The translations under genes were made by a program, and so were the position numbers. Source: Sphaerochaetaceae bacterium (GTDB lineage: Bacteria; Spirochaetota; Spirochaetia; Sphaerochaetales; Sphaerochaetaceae). Taken from it: a stretch of DNA of 64,000 bases. Positions 1,233-41,643 of the stretch are shown in pieces (position 1 is the stretch's first letter; every line of letters begins with the position of its first letter). The notes under the pieces were generated by a model. The model worked only from the letters and a program-made list of their open reading frames with translations. It was not told the origin of the DNA and searched no databases. The stretch lies in the NCBI GenBank assembly GCA_028532765.1, contig JAQQAR010000008.1:124001-188000 (forward strand), read 5' to 3'.

Positions 1233-1794
1233 TTACTCCTTTTTCCCAGTACGCTCACTCGGTGAACGCTGTCGTAGATATGGTACCAACTCGCCATACA
1301 GACCACGGAAAGCAGTTGCTCCTTTCCCCTTTGCATTGCTTGTCACTACCGGTTTCTGTATCTCACCCATTTTCTCTATCTCACTCGCGAAAGGAATCAC
1401 CGTTTGCAGTGCCTCTTTTCTCTGCAACAACTCCCGGGTAGTCTCTACCTGCAGTTTCTTTCTTCTGTCAAGCATGGAGACAACCATTCTCACTCGTGTA
1501 TCTTTCTGCTCCAATGGAAAGATAGCGATAAGCCGTTGAGGACGGCAGTACATCCAGGGAAGAGAAACTGGTGGCCTGGATTTGCTTCGTCAATTGCTTG
1601 CCACCCTTCACCAATGCAGTTGCATCATGACTTTTCCTCGGCTTTACATCCAGCAAGTAGCTGCTTGACCCCAAGGGGGCAAGATCGAGCAACAATGTCC
1701 GCTGTCCAGCCATCGCAGAGAGCACGGCCAGGTTCACACTGATGGTGCTCTTTCCTACTCCCCCCTTGATGCTGTACACGGCCAATGTTGTCAT
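1233..1794 (-). pseudogene. ParA/Soj-type ATPase, internally deleted and frameshifted
   Basis: Two reading frames carry the two ends of one ParA-family protein. The frame starting at 1794 has the deviant Walker A KGGVGKST (residues 10-17) and runs to about VLPSSTAYRYL. The frame ending at 1233 holds the C-terminal part, including SMLDRRKK, IPFASEIEKMG and a GATAFRGLY helix. They meet near 1505-1535 in different frames. The middle, roughly 60-80 codons with the Walker B/DCPPS region by comparison with the family, is absent, so a simple sequencing slip cannot explain it. The start overlaps the CHAD stop by ATGA. In other bacteria this ParA subtype is encoded beside CHAD and PPK genes; here it should not bind or hydrolyse ATP normally. 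Confidence 0.85.
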
Positions 1795-2777
1795 GTCATC
1801 TCCTCCCAGTACTCACTACTCAAATGACGGTACTCACCTACCAGGTGCTGTACTTCCTTCTCTACATCAACCAGGACCCGCAAGGTTTCAATGGGGGGTT
1901 TCTTCTGTGTTAACAGCAAGTCCTGCAAGAGGATGAGGTCGTGCCACTTGCCAAGAATCTTCTCAAGTTCATACAGCCTCTTATCCTGCTTGACGGATGC
2001 CATCCCGCTCACTGCAAGCAGAGAGCGCACCCGACTGCGCACCTTGTGCATCGCCTGTACATCCCTCGCTGAGTGCACCTTGTGAACAGCCTTCACCAAA
2101 CGCCTATGGGCCTTCGCCACCATAACCTTCGGGTGATAACCTGAAAAGGCGAATCGGTTCTCCTCCAGTAGCTGGCGAATGTCAGAAGCAAAGGAAGAAG
2201 GCAGCGCTTCCTTCAGAGCTGAAAGGTGCTTCTCCGTCTTCAGATGCTTCTTCTCATCCTCAAGTCCTTTCTCCTCCAACAGCTGGCTAAGAACATGGTC
2301 ATCACGGACTTTCCCTGCATATTTGACCAGTCTCTTCAGTAATCGTTTGATCTCCTTCCGCCTCTCCTTGGAGAGTCCAGCACCGATTAGAGGGACCATC
2401 TGGCGGAGATTGCACATTGCTGTCCTGAAAGCATGCAAGGATTTCATATCCTCCAGATTAGAAGCATGTTCAGAGAAAATGGCTACCTGCTTCTCACACC
2501 AACCAATAAGGGGACTGTTGCACATCTCCCTGAAGGCCGGCACTGCCAGCAAACCCTCCAGTTGTTCTTGGGTACCAGGGAGAGGAAAGAGTTCAAGGCG
2601 CAATTCCTCAGGGAAGTATCTCAACTCCCCTACAGGCTGTTCATCAAGAAGCAGAGTACCCTCAAGCGGAATGGAGGCCTCCTTCCAGAGAATTCGGTAG
2701 GGAGAAAATAGATTTTCCCATGTTTCAGGGGCGGACTGGGTTTCAAATAACAGGTAGTACGGGCCGTTGTTGTTCAT
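1791..2777 (-). CDS. CHAD domain protein
   Basis: A CHAD (conserved histidine alpha-helical domain) protein; members bind inorganic polyphosphate. The domain covers about residues 108-328, with the repeated basic pattern His115/Arg118/Arg125 in the first half and His244/Arg247/Arg251 in the second. The first 105 residues form a separate domain that I do not recognise; it is not an obvious CYTH domain. It overlaps ppk1 upstream (ATGA) and the parA remnant downstream (ATGA), which implies translational coupling and a job in polyphosphate handling or localisation. Predicted cytoplasmic, with no signal peptide or membrane segment. Confidence 0.85.
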   Translation of the reverse strand: MNNNGPYYLLFETQSAPETWENLFSPYRILWKEASIPLEGTLLLDEQPVGELRYFPEELRLELFPLPGTQEQLEGLLAVPAFREMCNSPLIGWCEKQVAIFSEHASNLEDMKSLHAFRTAMCNLRQMVPLIGAGLSKERRKEIKRLLKRLVKYAGKVRDDHVLSQLLEEKGLEDEKKHLKTEKHLSALKEALPSSFASDIRQLLEENRFAFSGYHPKVMVAKAHRRLVKAVHKVHSARDVQAMHKVRSRVRSLLAVSGMASVKQDKRLYELEKILGKWHDLILLQDLLLTQKKPPIETLRVLVDVEKEVQHLVGEYRHLSSEYWEEMT

Positions 2778-4837
2778 AGGTTTTCCTCCAACTGATGCTG
2801 ATACCAGAGATACAGATCCCGTTGTGCTCGTTTCTCATTTGGTTCACCTTTCTGGAGACGTTGATTGAAATTCTCTTCATGGAGGCTGAAGGAAGAGGCT
2901 GTATCGTTCCAGTGCGCCTGCAGGAACAACTCCAACTCCTCCTTGATCCTATCATCAAAGACAGGAACCATGACCTCGATACGCGTATCGAGATTACGTT
3001 CCATCCAATCGGCGGACCCAATGAAATAGAGTGGCTCTCCCTTGTTGTGGAACTTCACCACCCTGGTATGCTCAAGATAGCGGTCTATCAGGGCCTTTCC
3101 CCTTACATTGCTTTGCTCCGGAAAAAGGGCCATGGAACAGATTCCCCTGATCATCAAGGTAATGGAGACACCACTTCTCTCTGCCTTGATCAAATGCTTG
3201 ATCATCCCCTCATCAACCAGGTTGTTCAACTTGAGGGTAATCTCTGCAGGCCTGCCCTCCTTCGCTTCCTCCATCTCCTTCTTGATCAGTGAGATGAAAC
3301 GCTTACGGGTATGGAAGGGGGAGACGATCAGGTGCTTGAACTTGATATCTGCAAACCCTCGGTCCAGGAGCGTAAAGAGCAGGTCGATCTCCTGTGTTAA
3401 ATTGGGGTTGGAGGTTAGCAGGAGATGGTCACTGTACTGACTTGCCGTCACCTCGTTGAAATTCCCTGTACCGATGATGGCAATCTTTTTCTGTTTCTTG
3501 CCACTATAACGGGTGATAAGCCCAAGCTTGCTGTGCACCTTCATCCCCTCAACCCCACTGATCAGGGTGATGTGGCGCTCACGGGTGAGGGTCTCGGTCC
3601 ACTGCATGTTGATCTCCTCGTCAAAACGAGCCTGGAGCTCCAGGTACAGCACGATCTCCTTTCCGTTCCGTGCAGCATTTCTCAGCGCGTTGATTACATT
3701 GGAGTTTTCCGGTACTCGATAGAGGGTCATCTTGATCCCCTGGACCGTCCTATCCAAAGCTGCTTCACGTAGCAGGTCAATGATGCAGTCATAGCTCTGG
3801 TACGGGAGAGTCACCAAGTGATCACGCTCATCAATCTGGTCAAGCAGGCTTCTCTCCTCCCTCAATGTATGGTGAGGCAAGGGAGGCTGTTCCTCGAAAT
3901 ACAACTGTTCATTGCCTACCTTGGGAAAATGCAACAGGTCCCTTGCATTGTGGTATCTACCACCCGGTATGATGATTCGGCACTGTTTCAGCTGTGCATG
4001 TTCCATGATATAGTCAAGCATCGGCTTGGGTAACTCACGGTCATAGACAAACCTGACCGGATCCCCCTGGCTGCGTTGCTTGATGGAGGATGAGAGTTTC
4101 TCATAGAGACTTCTCGTGATCTCATCAGTCAGGTCATACTCACCGTCCCGGGTGATCTTGATGGTATAGGCATCATAGCAGTCATAACTGAATGCCTTGA
4201 ATATGTCTGCCAACTTGAATCTGATTACATCCTCAAGGGCAATGAAGTGATGCCAACCGCCCCGGGAAGGAAGCTTCACATACCGTTGGATCAGATCACT
4301 GGGAACCTCGATCAGTGCGTAGCGAAAATCCTTCGGATTACCCTTATGGTACATATGCACCGCTAAATAGAGGGTTACATGCTTGAGATAGGGAAATGGT
4401 AGTTTTGGGTCCAGGAGAATCGGGAACAAGCGGTTGCGGAGTGTCTGGCGGAAAAAATCCTGCAGGTAGCGTTTCTGTTCGTCGGTTAGGGATGATTCAT
4501 CCACAATGGATATGTGATGAGTCCTCAGTGTCCTGAAGAGCTGCTCAACCACCCGATCCATCCGGTCATTGAGCCGCTTCACTTCCTTGAGAATCTGCTT
4601 GATCAAGGTCTTGGGATTCCCGCTCTCCTTGAGCTTGTAGTGCTCTGGGTCGAGGAGAGCACGGTGAATTGAGCCAACCCGTACTGCATAGAACTCATCC
4701 AGGTTCGATGAGAATATTCCAATGAACTTCATGCGTTCCATCAAGGGAATATTCGGATTCTCGGCACTCATCAACACCCGTTCATTGAAACTCAGCCATC
4801 TCAGTTCGCGATTCACATATTCTTTTTTTGAACCCAT
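2774..4837 (-). CDS. ppk1: polyphosphate kinase 1
   Basis: Makes polyphosphate reversibly from ATP. The 687-residue protein has the N-terminal domain opening RELRWLSFNERVL, the first phospholipase-D-like domain with the phospho-acceptor VHSK (His435, same number as the E. coli active-site His), and the second with EHTRVVKFHNKG (His597, matching E. coli His592) and SADWMERNLD. At the place of E. coli His454 (HLGTGN) this protein reads IIGTGN, so the secondary histidine is absent. The ATG has a GGAG site 7 bases upstream. First gene of the ppk1-CHAD-parA'-pfkA operon, with a promoter at 4920-4949. Confidence 0.95.
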   Translation of the reverse strand: MGSKKEYVNRELRWLSFNERVLMSAENPNIPLMERMKFIGIFSSNLDEFYAVRVGSIHRALLDPEHYKLKESGNPKTLIKQILKEVKRLNDRMDRVVEQLFRTLRTHHISIVDESSLTDEQKRYLQDFFRQTLRNRLFPILLDPKLPFPYLKHVTLYLAVHMYHKGNPKDFRYALIEVPSDLIQRYVKLPSRGGWHHFIALEDVIRFKLADIFKAFSYDCYDAYTIKITRDGEYDLTDEITRSLYEKLSSSIKQRSQGDPVRFVYDRELPKPMLDYIMEHAQLKQCRIIIPGGRYHNARDLLHFPKVGNEQLYFEEQPPLPHHTLREERSLLDQIDERDHLVTLPYQSYDCIIDLLREAALDRTVQGIKMTLYRVPENSNVINALRNAARNGKEIVLYLELQARFDEEINMQWTETLTRERHITLISGVEGMKVHSKLGLITRYSGKKQKKIAIIGTGNFNEVTASQYSDHLLLTSNPNLTQEIDLLFTLLDRGFADIKFKHLIVSPFHTRKRFISLIKKEMEEAKEGRPAEITLKLNNLVDEGMIKHLIKAERSGVSITLMIRGICSMALFPEQSNVRGKALIDRYLEHTRVVKFHNKGEPLYFIGSADWMERNLDTRIEVMVPVFDDRIKEELELFLQAHWNDTASSFSLHEENFNQRLQKGEPNEKRAQRDLYLWYQHQLEENL

Positions 4838-4949: not shown

Positions 4950-5054
4950 TTTTGTTCTACATGTTACGGTTTTGGAAGTTTGGGAACCTTCTGATCCCCG
5001 AGGGTATGTTCCCCTGTAATTTTTTGGTATATTGAGAGCGTGAACGGAGGATTC

Positions 5055-6254
5055 ATGGAAACATTGCTTACACAATATGCACGTCTTGTCATCGAGGTGC
5101 AATTGAAACTACGCGAGGGTGACAGCCTCTCCATCAACAGCGAGGCAAGTACCCTGACTTTTGCCAGACTGCTTGCTCAGAAGGCCGCACTTGCAACCAG
5201 GCAGACGGTCACCATCGTACATACCAACCATGGGAAGGTGGTGGATGCCATCCCCATCGAGCCGACAGAGAAGGAAATCTTCCGTCCCCCAGTACAGGAA
5301 GCCGTCATGTGCCACATTGTCGACCTGGACGAGCACCCATACCTTACGCCAACCGACCTCGACACAGCAGCGGAGGAAGTAACCACCCTGGGGAAATACG
5401 GATTGCTCGCCGATCCCGTCTTCCTTGACCGGAGGATTGCCGTCCCCTGGGCCAATATACCCTATCCAGGCCCTCGCTGGGCGTTGCAGTTGCTTGGGAC
5501 CCAAGCAAGTGAAGAGGATATGTGGAAACTTTTCACCACGCTCTACCGAATAGAAGATGAGCATGGCTTCCGTTTCTGGGAAGAGCAGGGAAACCTCCTG
5601 GCTTACAGGATACAGAAACTGAATGAACGAGGAAGGTGCAAGATCCGTTTGATCGGGGACCTTTGGGAGATTGGTGCTACCATGGCCAAGGACACGCTCT
5701 GGGCCGGAGGCAGACAAACCCTGCCCAGCCAACGCTCGTTCTTCTCTTCACTCCCGGTGCAGGCAATTCATGCTGCCCTGGATGGAAAAAGTGCCAATGG
5801 AACCTTCATCTCCTCAAGACCCTTCTATGTCCTTGGACAGGAAGTAAAGGGAGCACGGTTCACCGTGGAAGATGGATTGGTCACAGAGTATGCAGCACAG
5901 AGTGGCGAAGAAGCGCTCACTGCACTCTTCTCAGTTGATGAGAATGCGAAGAGAGTGAGTGAAATCTCACTTGCCGATCATGATACCGTTGAAAGCCATT
6001 ACCTGGAAAAATCGATCCATCCCCACTTTGCACGGGAAATGACCAGCATGATTGTGCTGGGTGGATTCTCCCTGGACAATCTGACCACTCAACAGAATGA
6101 AGGGGATATAGAAGACAGTGCTCTTTGCACCTCCCTGGTGAGGGTGGCGGTACCAATTGGGGACAGCCATCTATCGGTAACGCTGCATAGCGAGGATGGG
6201 AGTGAGTCATCTGTAATGGAAGAGGGAATATTCACAGAGGAGGGACTGGTATGA
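5055..6254 (+). CDS. M29-family aminopeptidase paralogue lacking most metal ligands
   Basis: Same fold and length (399 aa) as the next gene, a member of peptidase family M29 (thermophilic metallo-aminopeptidases). Compared with that neighbour it keeps one of five metal ligands: Glu303 in VSEISL. The other four positions are changed: VQA near 236 instead of Glu, MTSMIVLGG instead of the DENASCH block, and RVAV at 363-366 instead of HID. It is therefore probably not a peptidase by itself and may be a partner subunit. ATG 5055 was chosen because GGAGG ends 4 bases before it; the GTG at 5040 has no ribosome site. A TATATT box at 5028-5033 may be its -10. Its TGA overlaps the next start. Confidence 0.8.
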   Translation: METLLTQYARLVIEVQLKLREGDSLSINSEASTLTFARLLAQKAALATRQTVTIVHTNHGKVVDAIPIEPTEKEIFRPPVQEAVMCHIVDLDEHPYLTPTDLDTAAEEVTTLGKYGLLADPVFLDRRIAVPWANIPYPGPRWALQLLGTQASEEDMWKLFTTLYRIEDEHGFRFWEEQGNLLAYRIQKLNERGRCKIRLIGDLWEIGATMAKDTLWAGGRQTLPSQRSFFSSLPVQAIHAALDGKSANGTFISSRPFYVLGQEVKGARFTVEDGLVTEYAAQSGEEALTALFSVDENAKRVSEISLADHDTVESHYLEKSIHPHFAREMTSMIVLGGFSLDNLTTQQNEGDIEDSALCTSLVRVAVPIGDSHLSVTLHSEDGSESSVMEEGIFTEEGLV

Positions 6255-7474
6255 ACAAACAGGAAATTGAGAGATATGCGGACCTGATCATCCAAGGGGG
6301 GATCAACCTACAGAGCGGGAAAGGGGTTGTCATCACCACAGGACCTGGTACCTATTATTTTGCCCGGGAACTGAGCAAGTCAGCTTATCGCCATGGGGCA
6401 AGCTATGTGCAGGTCCTGCTTGATGACCTGGATGTCCTCTCAGAGAGGTTGAAGCACCAGGATGAGGATGCATTGAAATTCAACCCGCATTTCCTCAAGG
6501 CATTCGACTATGAGTTTGTCAGTGAGGGTTGGTCACATATCAGGATCGACAGCACCGAGGAGAGGCTCGATCATGCACCACTTGACGGAGCGAAGAACCA
6601 GATACTGGGAAAGGCAAAACGTCAGTTCAGTGAAGCGAAAACCAAGAAACTGATGCGTCACCAGCTCCCCTGGTGTGTCTGTGTGGCCCCCGGGCCCCTC
6701 TGGGCAAAACAGGTACTGGGAGAGGATGCAACCACTGATGACCTCATGAAGGTCCTGACCCCTATCCTGCTCCTCGACGCAGATGACCCTATCAAAGCCT
6801 GGAATGAGAAAGCTTCTGTGCTGAGGAAACGACAGGAATATCTCAATGGGCTTGGGATCGACACACTGCACTACCAGAGCAGCAAGAGTGACCTGAGGAT
6901 CGGATTCACAGAGAGAGCACGATTCACCGGAGGAAGTGAGGCACTACCCGATGGGAGGGAGTTCTTCGCCAACCTACCCACAGAGGAAATATTCACCACT
7001 CCTGACAACCTCAGGGCAGAGGGATACATCACCACGACCAAACCTGTTGAGGTGCTGAACACCACCACCGAGGAGGTCCGCTTTGTATTCAAGGATGGAG
7101 AGGTGGTTGAGTACCAAGCCAAGAAAGGCCAGGAGGCACTGGACAGGTTCTTTGCCATAGATGAGGGCACCCGTAGACTCGGGGAGGTTGCCTTGGTGGA
7201 TGAGACCAGCCCGATCGCAAAAAGCAATCTTGTCTTCAACTCAATCCTGCTTGATGAGAATGCTTCCTGCCACCTTGCTCTCGGAGAAGGCTATCTCTCT
7301 GCACTCAAGGATGGTACAACCCTGGATACCAAGGAACAGCTGCAACAAGCACATTGCAATACCAGCCTTATGCACATAGACTTCATGGTCGGCTCCCCGG
7401 ATATGAAAATAACCGCCCATACTCGTGATGGACGGCAAGTGGTGATCATGGAAAACGGGATGTTTACCTTCTAG
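6251..7474 (+). CDS. M29-family aminopeptidase, complete active site
   Basis: Cobalt- or zinc-dependent aminopeptidase of family M29 (AmpS/aminopeptidase T), removing N-terminal residues from peptides in the cytoplasm. All expected ligands are visible in the 407 residues: Glu246 (PTEEIF), Glu312 (LGEVAL), His341 (NASCHLALG), His375 and Asp377 (MHIDFMVG), plus Tyr348. The spacing matches the Thermus enzyme. It overlaps the degenerate paralogue upstream by ATGA. M29 enzymes are dimers, so the pair could form a mixed dimer (inference). Its TAG shares CTAG with the TAG of the convergent coaX. Confidence 0.92.
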   Translation: MNKQEIERYADLIIQGGINLQSGKGVVITTGPGTYYFARELSKSAYRHGASYVQVLLDDLDVLSERLKHQDEDALKFNPHFLKAFDYEFVSEGWSHIRIDSTEERLDHAPLDGAKNQILGKAKRQFSEAKTKKLMRHQLPWCVCVAPGPLWAKQVLGEDATTDDLMKVLTPILLLDADDPIKAWNEKASVLRKRQEYLNGLGIDTLHYQSSKSDLRIGFTERARFTGGSEALPDGREFFANLPTEEIFTTPDNLRAEGYITTTKPVEVLNTTTEEVRFVFKDGEVVEYQAKKGQEALDRFFAIDEGTRRLGEVALVDETSPIAKSNLVFNSILLDENASCHLALGEGYLSALKDGTTLDTKEQLQQAHCNTSLMHIDFMVGSPDMKITAHTRDGRQVVIMENGMFTF

Positions 7475-8232
7475 TTGAGTTCCTGGATGAGTTTCAGACC
7501 ATCGAGGGTATGCATGGAGGCAATCTGGTTGATCCGGTCAATGAGCGGGGCGATGGTCCTGCTCAGACCACCGGTAGCTATGACATAGACCTCCTTGCCT
7601 ATTTCCTGCTCCACTCGCTCGATCATGGTTGTCACCATTCCCGCGTAGCCATACATGATACCGCTCCTGATCGAGTCCTGGCTGTTCTGGCCCAAGACAG
7701 AGGGGGGAATCTTCAGTTCTACCTGGGGAAGTTGCGCGGTATTCCCGAAGAGGGCGTTCACCGCAGTAACCAGACCGGGGGCGATGGAAACCCCAAGAAC
7801 GGAACCATCGCAGTCAACCGTAGCAAGGGTGAGTGCGGTACCAAAGTCCACCACAACCACCGCATGGTCCGGGCAAGCAAAATGTGCCTGGGCAAGGTTT
7901 GCCAACAAGTCACTTCCCAGTTCAGCAGGGATGGTCTCTTTTCTTAGGCCACTGTTCACGCTATGGTCTATCATCAAGGGCTGAACATCGAACAACCTGA
8001 TGATGTTTTTCTGCATTGACCTGGTCAGGTTGGGTACAACCGAGCTGATCACAGCCCGGTTAATATCATGCTTGAAGAGCTGGGAATGACTCAGCAGGCT
8101 CTCCAAGACAACAAAATACTCATCGCTGGTCTTTCGTTGGTCGCTGTAAATCCTGTAGGAGTGTATCCATTTCTGCCCATCATGGACAGCGATCACGATA
8201 TTCGTATTTCCAATATCTACAGCTAGCAGCAT
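7471..8232 (-). CDS. coaX: type III pantothenate kinase
   Basis: Phosphorylates pantothenate in the first step of coenzyme A synthesis. The 253 residues start with the actin-like phosphate loop DIGNTN (6-11) and contain VVDFGTALTLATVD and a C-terminal ATGGLSRTI loop. The motif usually written GADR is GSDL here, which may be a lineage variant. AAGGAGG stands 4 bases before the ATG. The stop codon overlaps that of the convergent aminopeptidase in a shared CTAG. The ABC-F gene lies just upstream on the same strand. Confidence 0.93.
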   Translation of the reverse strand: MLLAVDIGNTNIVIAVHDGQKWIHSYRIYSDQRKTSDEYFVVLESLLSHSQLFKHDINRAVISSVVPNLTRSMQKNIIRLFDVQPLMIDHSVNSGLRKETIPAELGSDLLANLAQAHFACPDHAVVVVDFGTALTLATVDCDGSVLGVSIAPGLVTAVNALFGNTAQLPQVELKIPPSVLGQNSQDSIRSGIMYGYAGMVTTMIERVEQEIGKEVYVIATGGLSRTIAPLIDRINQIASMHTLDGLKLIQELN

Positions 8233-8241
8233 GAGACCTCC

Positions 8242-9879
8242 TTATAGGGCCATGGCATGATGGGACCCACTGTACATCTCATCACGCAAGGCTTTGATGG
8301 ATTCGTCATTGAAATAGTCCTCGAATCCAATCAGCCTGTCAATGACACCTGCTGGGGTGAACTCTACAATGCGGTTTGCAATCGATTCAACAAACTGGTG
8401 GTCATGGCTGTTGAAGAGCAGGACGCCACTGAATTCAATCAATCCATCATTGAGGGCGGTGATGGCCTCCAGGTCCAGATGGCTTGTCGGTTCGTCCAGG
8501 ATCATGCAATTGGCCTGCTCCAGCATCATGCGTGCAAGCACGACGCGGACCTTCTCCCCTCCACTGAGAACCGTACAGTCCTTCAGTGCCTCGTCCCCGC
8601 TGAAGAGCATTCTTCCAAGGAAGGAGCGAATATAGGTATCGTCCTTATCACTGCTGTAGGTCCTGAGCCAATCGGTAATGGAGACGTGCTCATTGAAGAG
8701 GTGTGCGTTGTTCTTGGGGAAGTATGAGAGGCTGGTGGTTACCCCCCACTCAAAACTCCCTGCATCCGGTTCCATGTTTCCACTGAGAATCTCGAAGAGG
8801 ATCGTCTTTGCATAGTGGTTCGGCCCTACAAAGGCTACCTTGTCGTCTGCGTTGAGTACCATGGAGAAGTTGTCCAGAATCTTCTCGCCTTCAATGGTCT
8901 TGCTCAGGCCCTTGACCTCGAGGATCTTCTTTCCTACCTCTCGTTCAGGCTTGAATGCCACATAGGGAAATCTTCTGCTGGACGGCTTGATATCATCAAT
9001 GGTGAGCTTATCGATCAGTTTCTTACGGCTCGTTGCCTGTTTTGCCTTTGCCACGTTGCTGCTGAACCGTTGGATGAACTCCTTCAACTCAGAAATCTTC
9101 TCTTCCCTGCGCTTTTTCTGGTCCTTCATCTGCTTGGCAGCAAGCTGGCTTGAGAGGTACCAGAAATCGTAGTTACCGACATACAGCTGGATCTTGCCGA
9201 AGTCAATGTCTGCAATATGGGTACACACAGTGTTCAGGAAGTGACGGTCGTGGCTTACCACAATGACGGTGTTGTCAAAGTTGGAGAGAAACTCTTCAAG
9301 CCAGTGGATGGATTCAAGGTCAAGGTGGTTGGTGGGCTCGTCAAGCAAGAGAATGTCCGGGTTGCCGAACAGTGCCTGTGCAAGCAGTACACGAACCTTG
9401 ATGTTGTCCTCAACCTCATTCATCATCTTCTGCTGCATCTCTGTGTTGATGCCAAGCCCATCCAGCATCTGTGCTGCCTGGGCTTCGGCTTCCCATCCAC
9501 CAAGGTCTGCAAAGTCACCTTCGAGCTCAGCAGCCCTCAGTCCATCTTCCTCGGTGAAATCTTCCTTCGAGTAGATGGCATCACGTTCCTTCATGATCGA
9601 GTACAACTGCTCATACCCCATGATGACGGTTTCAAGCACGGAATACTCATTGAAGGCAAAGTGGTCCTGCCTGAGAACGGCCATACGCTGGCCGGAGGAG
9701 ATGATGACCTCCCCGCTATCAGCCTCGATCTCACCACTGAGAATTTTCAGGAAGGTGGACTTGCCTGCCCCATTTGCCCCAATTACCCCATAACAGTTTC
9801 CTGGGGTGAACTTTATATTGACTTCCTTGAAGAGTACTTGAGTCCCGTAGGCGAGACCAATGTTTGCAGCTGTAATCAT
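8242..9879 (-). CDS. ABC-F ATPase, YbiT type
   Basis: Ribosome-associated ABC-F protein with two nucleotide-binding domains in one 545-residue chain and no membrane segments. Domain 1 has Walker A GANGAGKST and LLLDEPTNHLD; the linker is basic and helical; domain 2 has LSGGEKVRV and MILDEPTSHLD. Walker A of domain 2 reads GPNHYAKT, with Ala for the last Gly, a form I recall from this subfamily. The start is the Met of MITAANIG, with an AGAGGA site 9 bases before it; the longer frame to 9921 would run toward the tRNA terminator. That terminator ends only 28 bases upstream and no promoter is visible between them. Confidence 0.9.
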   Translation of the reverse strand: MITAANIGLAYGTQVLFKEVNIKFTPGNCYGVIGANGAGKSTFLKILSGEIEADSGEVIISSGQRMAVLRQDHFAFNEYSVLETVIMGYEQLYSIMKERDAIYSKEDFTEEDGLRAAELEGDFADLGGWEAEAQAAQMLDGLGINTEMQQKMMNEVEDNIKVRVLLAQALFGNPDILLLDEPTNHLDLESIHWLEEFLSNFDNTVIVVSHDRHFLNTVCTHIADIDFGKIQLYVGNYDFWYLSSQLAAKQMKDQKKRREEKISELKEFIQRFSSNVAKAKQATSRKKLIDKLTIDDIKPSSRRFPYVAFKPEREVGKKILEVKGLSKTIEGEKILDNFSMVLNADDKVAFVGPNHYAKTILFEILSGNMEPDAGSFEWGVTTSLSYFPKNNAHLFNEHVSITDWLRTYSSDKDDTYIRSFLGRMLFSGDEALKDCTVLSGGEKVRVVLARMMLEQANCMILDEPTSHLDLEAITALNDGLIEFSGVLLFNSHDHQFVESIANRIVEFTPAGVIDRLIGFEDYFNDESIKALRDEMYSGSHHAMAL

Positions 9880-9907
9880 GATTGTGGTTCCTCTTGAATA
9901 GTATCCG

Positions 9908-9936
9908 AAAAAAAAGAGCAACCTGCAAGGCTGCCC
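9908..9936 (-). terminator. intrinsic terminator of the tRNA-Gln/tRNA-Glu transcript
   Basis: On the minus strand GGGCAGCC and GGTTGCTC form an 8-bp stem (two G-U pairs) with a TTGCA loop, followed at once by eight T. It lies 16 bases past the tRNA-Glu end and 28 bases before the ABC-F ATG. Confidence 0.8.
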
Positions 9937-39975: not shown

Positions 39976-41643
39976 ATGGCTACCAGTCCAAAACATACAT
40001 ATATCAAATTCTTCACCATGCTTATTTCCCTTGTTCTTGGGATTTTTTTCGTCAGATTGGCCTCTCTGATGCTTTTTAACCAGCCACAGACAAAAACATA
40101 CGACAATCCTGAGGTAGCAGAAAGCGTGATAAGAGGTACAATATATGACCGAAATGGAAGAATTCTCGCCATTGAACGCCCCTATTGGGGCGTTTACCTT
40201 CATCTTAACAAGATCGTGGACATCGCTCAGGTAAGTGAGGTCATTGCGCCTTTTGTAGAGATGAGCCCATCAGAGATACAACAGAAAGCTAGCAACTACA
40301 CCACCTATGCACAGATCAAGAAGGAGATAGACGACAGACAGGTAGAACCCCTTCGCAGCATCTTACAGGAACATGGCCTGCAGAACCAAGTAAACGTTGA
40401 GAAACGGATAGGGCGTTCCTATCCTGCACAATTTCACGCATCGCAGACCATTGGATTCACCAATGTAGAGATGGAGGGAATTGAAGGAATTGAGTTGAGT
40501 CAGGAAGAATTCCTCAATCCTTATCCAGAAATCGGGAACCGCGGCACTACCTATGGGGAGGATGTCATACTCACCCTGGATGTAAATATTCAATACGCCT
40601 TGGATGTACAGCTGCAACAAATTGCCGATGAATTCAACCCTGATTATGCAATGGCACTCGTACTCGATGCCCAAAATGGTGATATTCTTGGTATGTCCAG
40701 CTACCCTTGGTACGATATCAATGCACTGGGGCGTAGTAAGGAAGAACAGAGAAGAAACAATGCAGTGAACCTTCTGTATGAGCCAGGATCAGTGTTCAAG
40801 CTCTTCAGTATGGCTTCTATCCTACAGATTGGAGAAGCACAGACTGAAGAACCCTTTCTCTGTGATGGTTCCTACACCTTCAATGCAGGATCCAGCAATG
40901 TGACAATCAACTGCACCTCAGTCCATGGGGAGGTTGATGTGGAAACCATGCTTGCAAAATCATGTAATGGGGCAATTTCGCATTGGGCACTCCAGACTGA
41001 CCCTATTTCTTTTTATACTATGTTGGAACAAATGGGATTCACCTCCAGCTATGATATCTCGCTCCCATCCAAGGCAAAGGCATATATCGCAAACCCTTCC
41101 CAGTGGTCCGGAAGAACCCTCCCAACCATTGCCTTTGGACAAGAGCTCTTGGTAAGTGCCTTGCATCTCTGTACTGCAGCTACCGCACTCTCTCCTAAAG
41201 GGGAACTCATTGCTCCACATCTTATCCTCTCCCGCTCCTCTCCCGTGAGCGGAGAGAAAAGCTACCAACGGGAACGTACGGTAATCTCACAGGTGCTGGA
41301 ACCTTCGGTCACTGAACGTATCCGAGAAGGAATGCACCAAGCTACACTTCCAGGAGGCACGGGAATCCAGGCAAGTGTTGAAGGTGTGGACCTAGGGGTC
41401 AAGACGGGAACAGCCCAACTGTTCAATGAGGAGACAAAAAGTTATGAGGATGGAACCATCCTCGTATCGACACTTGGCATGGTACCGATTGAGAACCCAC
41501 AGTATATACTCTATGTAGGGGCGGGTAATCCAAAAGGGGCTTCTTTGTATGGATCAAATGTAGCAGCACCAGCGGTTGGAGCCATCGTCAGAACGCTTAT
41601 AAGTCAGGGGAAACTGATTGCAAGCGATACACCCCTCCTCTAG
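39976..41643 (+). CDS. class B penicillin-binding protein (FtsI-like transpeptidase)
   Basis: Cross-links peptidoglycan at the septum or sidewall. The 555 residues show an N-terminal membrane anchor (11-33), a class B dimerisation domain starting IRGTIYDRNGRILA (52-65), then the transpeptidase motifs: SVFK with Ser272, SCN (329-331) and KTG (476-478). No PASTA domains follow. In the usual dcw order ftsI follows ftsL; here that place is empty and this gene, 13 kb away, is the best candidate for FtsI. The TAG shares CTAG with the stop of the convergent FlhF-like gene. Confidence 0.92.
   Translation: MATSPKHTYIKFFTMLISLVLGIFFVRLASLMLFNQPQTKTYDNPEVAESVIRGTIYDRNGRILAIERPYWGVYLHLNKIVDIAQVSEVIAPFVEMSPSEIQQKASNYTTYAQIKKEIDDRQVEPLRSILQEHGLQNQVNVEKRIGRSYPAQFHASQTIGFTNVEMEGIEGIELSQEEFLNPYPEIGNRGTTYGEDVILTLDVNIQYALDVQLQQIADEFNPDYAMALVLDAQNGDILGMSSYPWYDINALGRSKEEQRRNNAVNLLYEPGSVFKLFSMASILQIGEAQTEEPFLCDGSYTFNAGSSNVTINCTSVHGEVDVETMLAKSCNGAISHWALQTDPISFYTMLEQMGFTSSYDISLPSKAKAYIANPSQWSGRTLPTIAFGQELLVSALHLCTAATALSPKGELIAPHLILSRSSPVSGEKSYQRERTVISQVLEPSVTERIREGMHQATLPGGTGIQASVEGVDLGVKTGTAQLFNEETKSYEDGTILVSTLGMVPIENPQYILYVGAGNPKGASLYGSNVAAPAVGAIVRTLISQGKLIASDTPLL

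Follow-up and report, generated by a model that had tools for sequence, protein, structure and literature searches.

Results

The M29 gene pair and its surroundings

The window, a stretch of 64,000 nucleotides from a Sphaerochaeta genome, carries two overlapping genes on its forward strand, here called ORF1 and ORF2 (Table 1). The relatives of this locus that bear a name belong to Sphaerochaeta species, the others to unnamed Spirochaetales. Both match the Pfam family Peptidase_M29 over their full length, at 194.9 bits for ORF1 and 426.2 bits for ORF2 (cut-off 27), and both find the M29 enzymes AmpS, PepS and AmpT by sequence, the match of ORF2 to AmpS (1zjc) having an E-value of 1.2e-69. For ORF1 an ATG start is favoured over a GTG at position 5040 because of the GGAGG that stands before the ATG. 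The two reading frames overlap in the tetranucleotide ATGA, and in the window genome they are translationally coupled.

Table 1. Features of the M29 locus, in positions of the window
Feature	Position	Strand	Basis
Ribosome-binding site of ORF1 (GGAGG), 4 nt upstream of its ATG	5046..5050	+	sequence
ORF1, M29-fold pseudopeptidase, 399 aa	5055..6254	+	Pfam PF02073, alignments, AlphaFold2 model, dN/dS
Residues 1-170 of ORF1, N-terminal domain corresponding to the dimerisation domain of M29 enzymes	5055..5564	+	model, conservation, papers
Conserved loop of ORF1, L118..P121..DRRI (residues 118-130)	5406..5444	+	alignment, models (low confidence, flexible)
AGGAGG, ribosome-binding site of ORF2, within the 3' end of ORF1	6238..6243	+	sequence
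ORF2, intact M29 aminopeptidase (predicted), 407 aa	6251..7474	+	Pfam, 1zjc match, EEHYHD motif
coaX (type III pantothenate kinase), convergent neighbour, 3' edge of the conserved slot	7471..8232	-	Pfam PF03309, NCBIfam NF009855
ABC-F ATPase, second conserved neighbour	8242..9921	-	Pfam, NCBIfam (NF011646 best match, below its cut-off)

Divergent from ORF1, at window positions 1791-4837 on the reverse strand, lies a polyphosphate gene pair in which a CHAD-domain protein is encoded beside polyphosphate kinase 1. The same genome holds a third M29 gene (C24:11053-12036, 369 aa), which keeps every ligand and belongs to a distinct subfamily that recurs in Sphaerochaetaceae. Further along the window, positions 39976-41640 of the forward strand encode an intact class B penicillin-binding protein with Transpeptidase and PBP_dimer domains and the motifs SVFK, SCN and KTGT. 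Sphaerochaeta has been described as lacking penicillin-binding proteins, a description that was not found in the open-licence full texts searched.

The metal site is complete in ORF2 and dismantled in ORF1

The original prediction had held that the second gene carries all five metal ligands of an M29 enzyme, and that the first gene keeps the equivalent of a single glutamate. The ligands of ORF2 are indeed all present and correctly numbered (Glu246, Glu312, His341, His375 and Asp377), together with the active-site Tyr348, which gives the pattern EEH-Y-HD. In the same columns of the profile alignment and the multiple alignments, ORF1 has Ala237, Glu303, a methionine, a gap in the tyrosine column, Arg363 and Ala365, so that one of the five ligands, the bridging Glu303, is kept and the other four are lost, as had been claimed; the proposed comparison of both genes with other M29 proteins turned up no full metal site in ORF1. 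Judged by the EEH-HD set and the tyrosine that mark a competent M29 enzyme, ORF2 should be catalytic and ORF1 should not, and ORF1 is very probably no M29 peptidase, despite what a family-level annotation would call it. The possibility that misalignment merely hides the metal site was considered and appears untenable: the profile alignment and the multiple alignments show the same columns as lost, and the match of the predicted fold spans the whole chain. Among spirochaetes, several lineages have otherwise intact M29 enzymes in which the active-site tyrosine is replaced by phenylalanine, giving EEHFHD (most of loci L074-L090, and loci L118, L156, L158 and L160).

The AlphaFold2 model of ORF1, built on 22 aligned sequences, has a mean pLDDT of 90.4 and a pTM of 0.89. 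Its best fold matches are AmpS (1zjc, Z 39.0 over 371 residues), AmpT (2ayi, Z 38.9) and PepS (Z 38), followed by 2,5-dihydroxypyridine dioxygenase (7cup, Z 20.4) and the crocagin proteins CgnE (Z 11.5) and CgnB (Z 11.0), with the remaining rows of the search at Z 5.7 or below, a background of about 5. The model aligns to 1zjc from residue 1 and so keeps the full N-terminal domain. Profile score and predicted fold (Z 38-39) alike place ORF1 in the M29 fold family, and the fold is predicted to be intact though the metal site has gone.

The pseudopeptidase lineage spans the family

Our survey covered 100 relatives and then 139 Sphaerochaetaceae genomes in 22 genera. The pair ORF1-ORF2 recurs in nearly every Sphaerochaeta genome examined, and in every full-length member sampled the first gene has a broken metal site, so the tandem arrangement and the ligand losses, whose conservation in relatives had been left to be checked, both hold up. 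By our own count the lineage of ORF1 is found in 19 of the 22 genera: 12 have full-length proteins, and in 7 the proteins are mostly shortened (about 330-400 aa), these being mostly genera with small genomes. Shortened members were recognised by their similarity and also by gene order wherever the contigs were long enough to show it. Sequences of the ORF1 type group in a single clade apart from the active M29 outgroups (100% SH-aLRT), and the ligand set is broken in every one of the 63 non-redundant full-length members. The pattern of loss varies from lineage to lineage, reading AE-M-RA in the window and S-E-S-RE, H-E-H-RD, R-E-S-RR, D-E-Q-RE or D-E-S-TS in others; the sole ligand column that is mostly kept is that of Glu312 (48/63). 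The adjacent full-length active partners have EEH...HD without exception.

Within the 395 Spirochaetia genomes searched, no protein outside Sphaerochaetaceae scored in the range of the clear pseudopeptidases, and each of the 19 M29 loci from outside the family that were read closely has an intact site (EEHYHD or EEHFHD) and no further M29 gene next to it; weaker relatives outside the family, or members in other phyla, are possible. The family shares a conserved slot, in which the pseudopeptidase and the active M29 gene are followed by convergent coaX (cluster c2, 53 loci) and ABC-F (cluster c1, 57 loci). Recurrent neighbours are coaX, ABC-F, RNase HII, SMC, a ZIP transporter and DUF3276. As a clue to function we set the neighbourhood aside, for the conserved neighbours are housekeeping genes that point nowhere. 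In genus g11, DUF3276 (PUR-like) and a ZIP metal transporter recur upstream of the pseudopeptidase (loci L037, L038, L105 and L110-L116).

The active partner has been lost repeatedly

In many species of three genera (g4, g11 and g16) the active gene is absent from its slot. In most of these solo loci the pseudopeptidase gene runs into coaX at its 3' end or stops at most a few tens of bases short of the next gene, and no trace of an active gene was found. Most of the solo genomes are draft assemblies, and 24 solo genomes are at least 90% complete; in these 24 (at most 5% contaminated) a dedicated search found no M29 protein other than the pseudopeptidase. The pseudopeptidase tree has the paired state at its base, and parsimony places seven changes on the tree, at least five of them forced by well-supported branches. 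The tree of the active genes shows broadly the same groups as that of the pseudopeptidases, and because the two run in parallel we prefer loss of the partner over its regain by transfer, which is disfavoured. The active gene has thus been lost several times from between the pseudopeptidase and coaX, while the pseudopeptidase was kept. The reverse case, in which the active gene is kept and no pseudopeptidase was found, turned up only in two genomes of genus g13 and in the draft genome G161. In another genome (G059, L053 2010-3208) the pseudopeptidase is intact but the active M29 gene next to it is broken across two reading frames, which is either a loss in progress or a sequencing error.

ORF1 is under purifying selection, and its conservation has shifted to the N-terminal domain

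Between close species pairs the dN/dS of ORF1 is mostly 0.06-0.13 (0.26 in one very close pair, 0.02 in one other pair), that of ORF2 mostly 0.04-0.07, and that of the solo pseudopeptidases mostly 0.06-0.15, similar to paired species. ORF1 is maintained by purifying selection. Decay within a single strain was rejected as an account of the broken site on two grounds, the recurrence of the pair in Sphaerochaeta and the dN/dS of ORF1.

In M29 enzymes the dimer is made by the N-terminal domain (PMC5587760, PMC10070186). Active copies are better conserved in their C-terminal, catalytic domain, where mean pairwise identity is 0.60, than in their N-terminal domain, where it is 0.48; in the pseudopeptidases the order is reversed, 0.40 for the N-terminal against 0.34 for the C-terminal domain, a modest bias in pairwise means that are not independent. 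When every sister pair is counted once, 19 of 22 pairs of pseudopeptidases are better conserved in the N-terminal than in the C-terminal domain (p 0.0009), and in 9 of 10 comparisons the ratio of N- to C-terminal conservation is higher in the pseudopeptidase than in its active partner (p 0.02). This ratio is the same in paired and in solo species. Residues that are near-fixed in the pseudopeptidases and not in active proteins include N28, T48, G60, L118, P121, F257 and P367; every one of the 63 non-redundant full-length pseudopeptidases has P121, and each of 75 active proteins lacks it. L118 and P121 start a loop that both models predict with low confidence, as if flexible, and that is nevertheless strongly conserved, and this combination of conservation and flexibility would fit a candidate binding loop at residues 118-130.

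Discussion

A probable role for ORF1 apart from its partner

A dead copy that is kept even where the working enzyme has been lost points to a job other than cutting. We propose that ORF1 is probably a dedicated non-catalytic protein of the M29 fold that can work without ORF2, its mechanism perhaps that of a peptide-binding dimer. The pseudopeptidase lineage would go back to an ancient gene duplication, no younger than the base of Sphaerochaetaceae, and would then have lost the dimetal site differently in different lineages while staying in place upstream of an intact aminopeptidase, ORF2. The activity under selection would lie mainly in the N-terminal domain and at the pseudopeptidase-specific positions rather than in the former catalytic centre, and it could run in a cell that has no M29 peptidase at all. 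Through its retained N-terminal domain ORF1 may form a dimer of the M29 type. CgnB and CgnE of the crocagin pathway are derived from M29 proteins and bind their precursor peptide with no aminopeptidase activity, and in their second copies metal ligands have been lost repeatedly and in different ways (PMC10070186); from this peptide binding without cutting, and from the similar ligand losses, we propose by analogy that the ORF1 dimer may bind a peptide or peptide-like ligand and leave it uncut. Where ORF2 is present, ORF1 may hand peptides on to the enzyme, protect peptides from it or join it in mixed dimers, and the adjacency of the two genes in about eleven genera suggests some link between them. 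A fuller version, in which a duplicated aminopeptidase became an independent peptide sensor or carrier on a dead M29 dimer and the parent enzyme became dispensable, is conceivable, though we lean against it in that specific form.

Alternative explanations

The alternative that survives best is the heterodimer of a catalytic and a pseudo-enzyme subunit that the original prediction had put forward. The two subunits would be joined through their N-terminal domains, one of the two active sites facing the shared cavity would be dead, and ORF1 would control access or specificity, a part that alpha-MPP plays for beta-MPP. Several features of the paired genomes speak for such a complex: the ATGA overlap and the strong ribosome-binding site, translational coupling, the adjacency and co-inheritance of the two genes over many genera, and the dimerisation domain that ORF1 keeps. 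In four Sphaerochaeta genomes ORF1 and ORF2 lie in the same frame with a stop and 3-4 codons between them, and the natural ORF1-stop-ORF2 read-through, modelled with AlphaFold2 as a single chain, reaches a pLDDT of 81.4 and a pTM of 0.76, where by our estimate about 0.5 would be expected for random placement; the model is suggestive, and packing of ORF1 with ORF2 plausible, but the two halves are tethered, the alignment of the second half is shallow and the fusion relied on five paired rows. Adjacent active and inactive metallopeptidases of family M16B are known to heterodimerise (PMC12731061), and ORF1 and ORF2 resemble them in being adjacent genes with and without the catalytic motif; the inactive member, however, is not lost together with the active one, as the 24 genomes show. 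Against a heterodimer as the main or only function stand these genomes, at least 24 of good quality with a pseudopeptidase and no other detectable M29 protein, and the solo loci, in which the pseudopeptidase mostly abuts coaX, the active gene having gone without trace. The dN/dS of solo pseudopeptidases and their equal ratio of N- to C-terminal conservation argue in the same direction. We therefore consider it unlikely that the heterodimer accounts for ORF1; it may be an added function in paired species, and it does not explain why a pseudopeptidase persists where the enzyme is missing.

It is improbable that ORF1 is instead a different enzyme, one with another metal or residue set on a related fold, as in 2,5-dihydroxypyridine dioxygenase (NicX/DHPD). 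That dioxygenase is the next-best fold match after the M29 enzymes, residues specific to the pseudopeptidases are conserved (N28, T48, G60, L118, P121, F257 and P367), and arginine stands in the column of the lost His375 in 38 of 63 proteins. The former ligand columns, however, vary between lineages (D, S, H, R, A, G and others), unlike those of an active site, and no conserved set of replacement His, Asp or Glu residues was found in the catalytic domain. That ORF1 is a decaying duplicate heading for loss is scarcely credible: it does evolve somewhat faster than ORF2, its catalytic domain is less conserved and the protein has shrunk to about 350 aa in genera with small genomes, but the low dN/dS largely refutes decay, the frame is open in nearly all species sampled with 19 of 22 genera retaining it, and the copy that is lost or broken in frame is the active gene.

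The reading that we prefer, a non-catalytic protein with a role of its own, matters since the usual explanation of a pseudoenzyme is that it regulates an active relative. Sphaerochaetaceae offer a natural series of repeated losses of that relative, with the dead copy still under selection, and culturable Sphaerochaeta make it possible to test what a pseudopeptidase does by itself. An M29 pseudopeptidase that occurs throughout a family and persists after its enzyme is lost appears to be new: the open-licence full texts held nothing specific on a conserved M29 pseudopeptidase that outlives its partner, or on M29 in Sphaerochaeta, and a 2024 review of pseudopeptidases among the metallopeptidases does not mention M29 (PMC11266112).

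Comparison with known systems

Set beside AmpS (1zjc), AmpT (2ayi) and PepS (4icq), ORF2 is an ordinary member with all ligands. ORF1 belongs to the same Pfam family and is predicted to share their fold along the whole chain; it differs in its single remaining ligand, in the missing active-site tyrosine and in the shift of conservation to the N-terminal domain. NicX/DHPD (7cup, 7cn3) offers a non-peptidase use of a related, M29-like fold, but the lineage of ORF1 conserves no equivalent set of metal ligands.

CgnB and CgnE (6zsv, 6zsu) are the only studied degenerate M29-derived proteins that we found, and they are known from one natural-product pathway. ORF1 is like them in its predicted M29-like fold and its degenerate metal site, but they are shorter and monomeric, with the dimer interface largely missing, whereas ORF1 keeps the full N-terminal dimer domain; and they are encoded in natural-product clusters, whereas ORF1 adjoins an intact M29 gene or coaX. 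In the M16B pairs (alpha/beta-MPP, SPH2681/SPH2682, TTHA1264/TTHA1265 and AlbF/AlbE) a catalytic homologue is matched with a non-catalytic one, much as ORF2 is with ORF1, and in prokaryotes the two are encoded by neighbouring genes (PMC12731061, PMC11266112). M16B proteins differ in being clam-shell enzymes with an HXXEH zinc site, and they differ from the M29 pair in this respect too, that the inactive M29 member persists without the active one.
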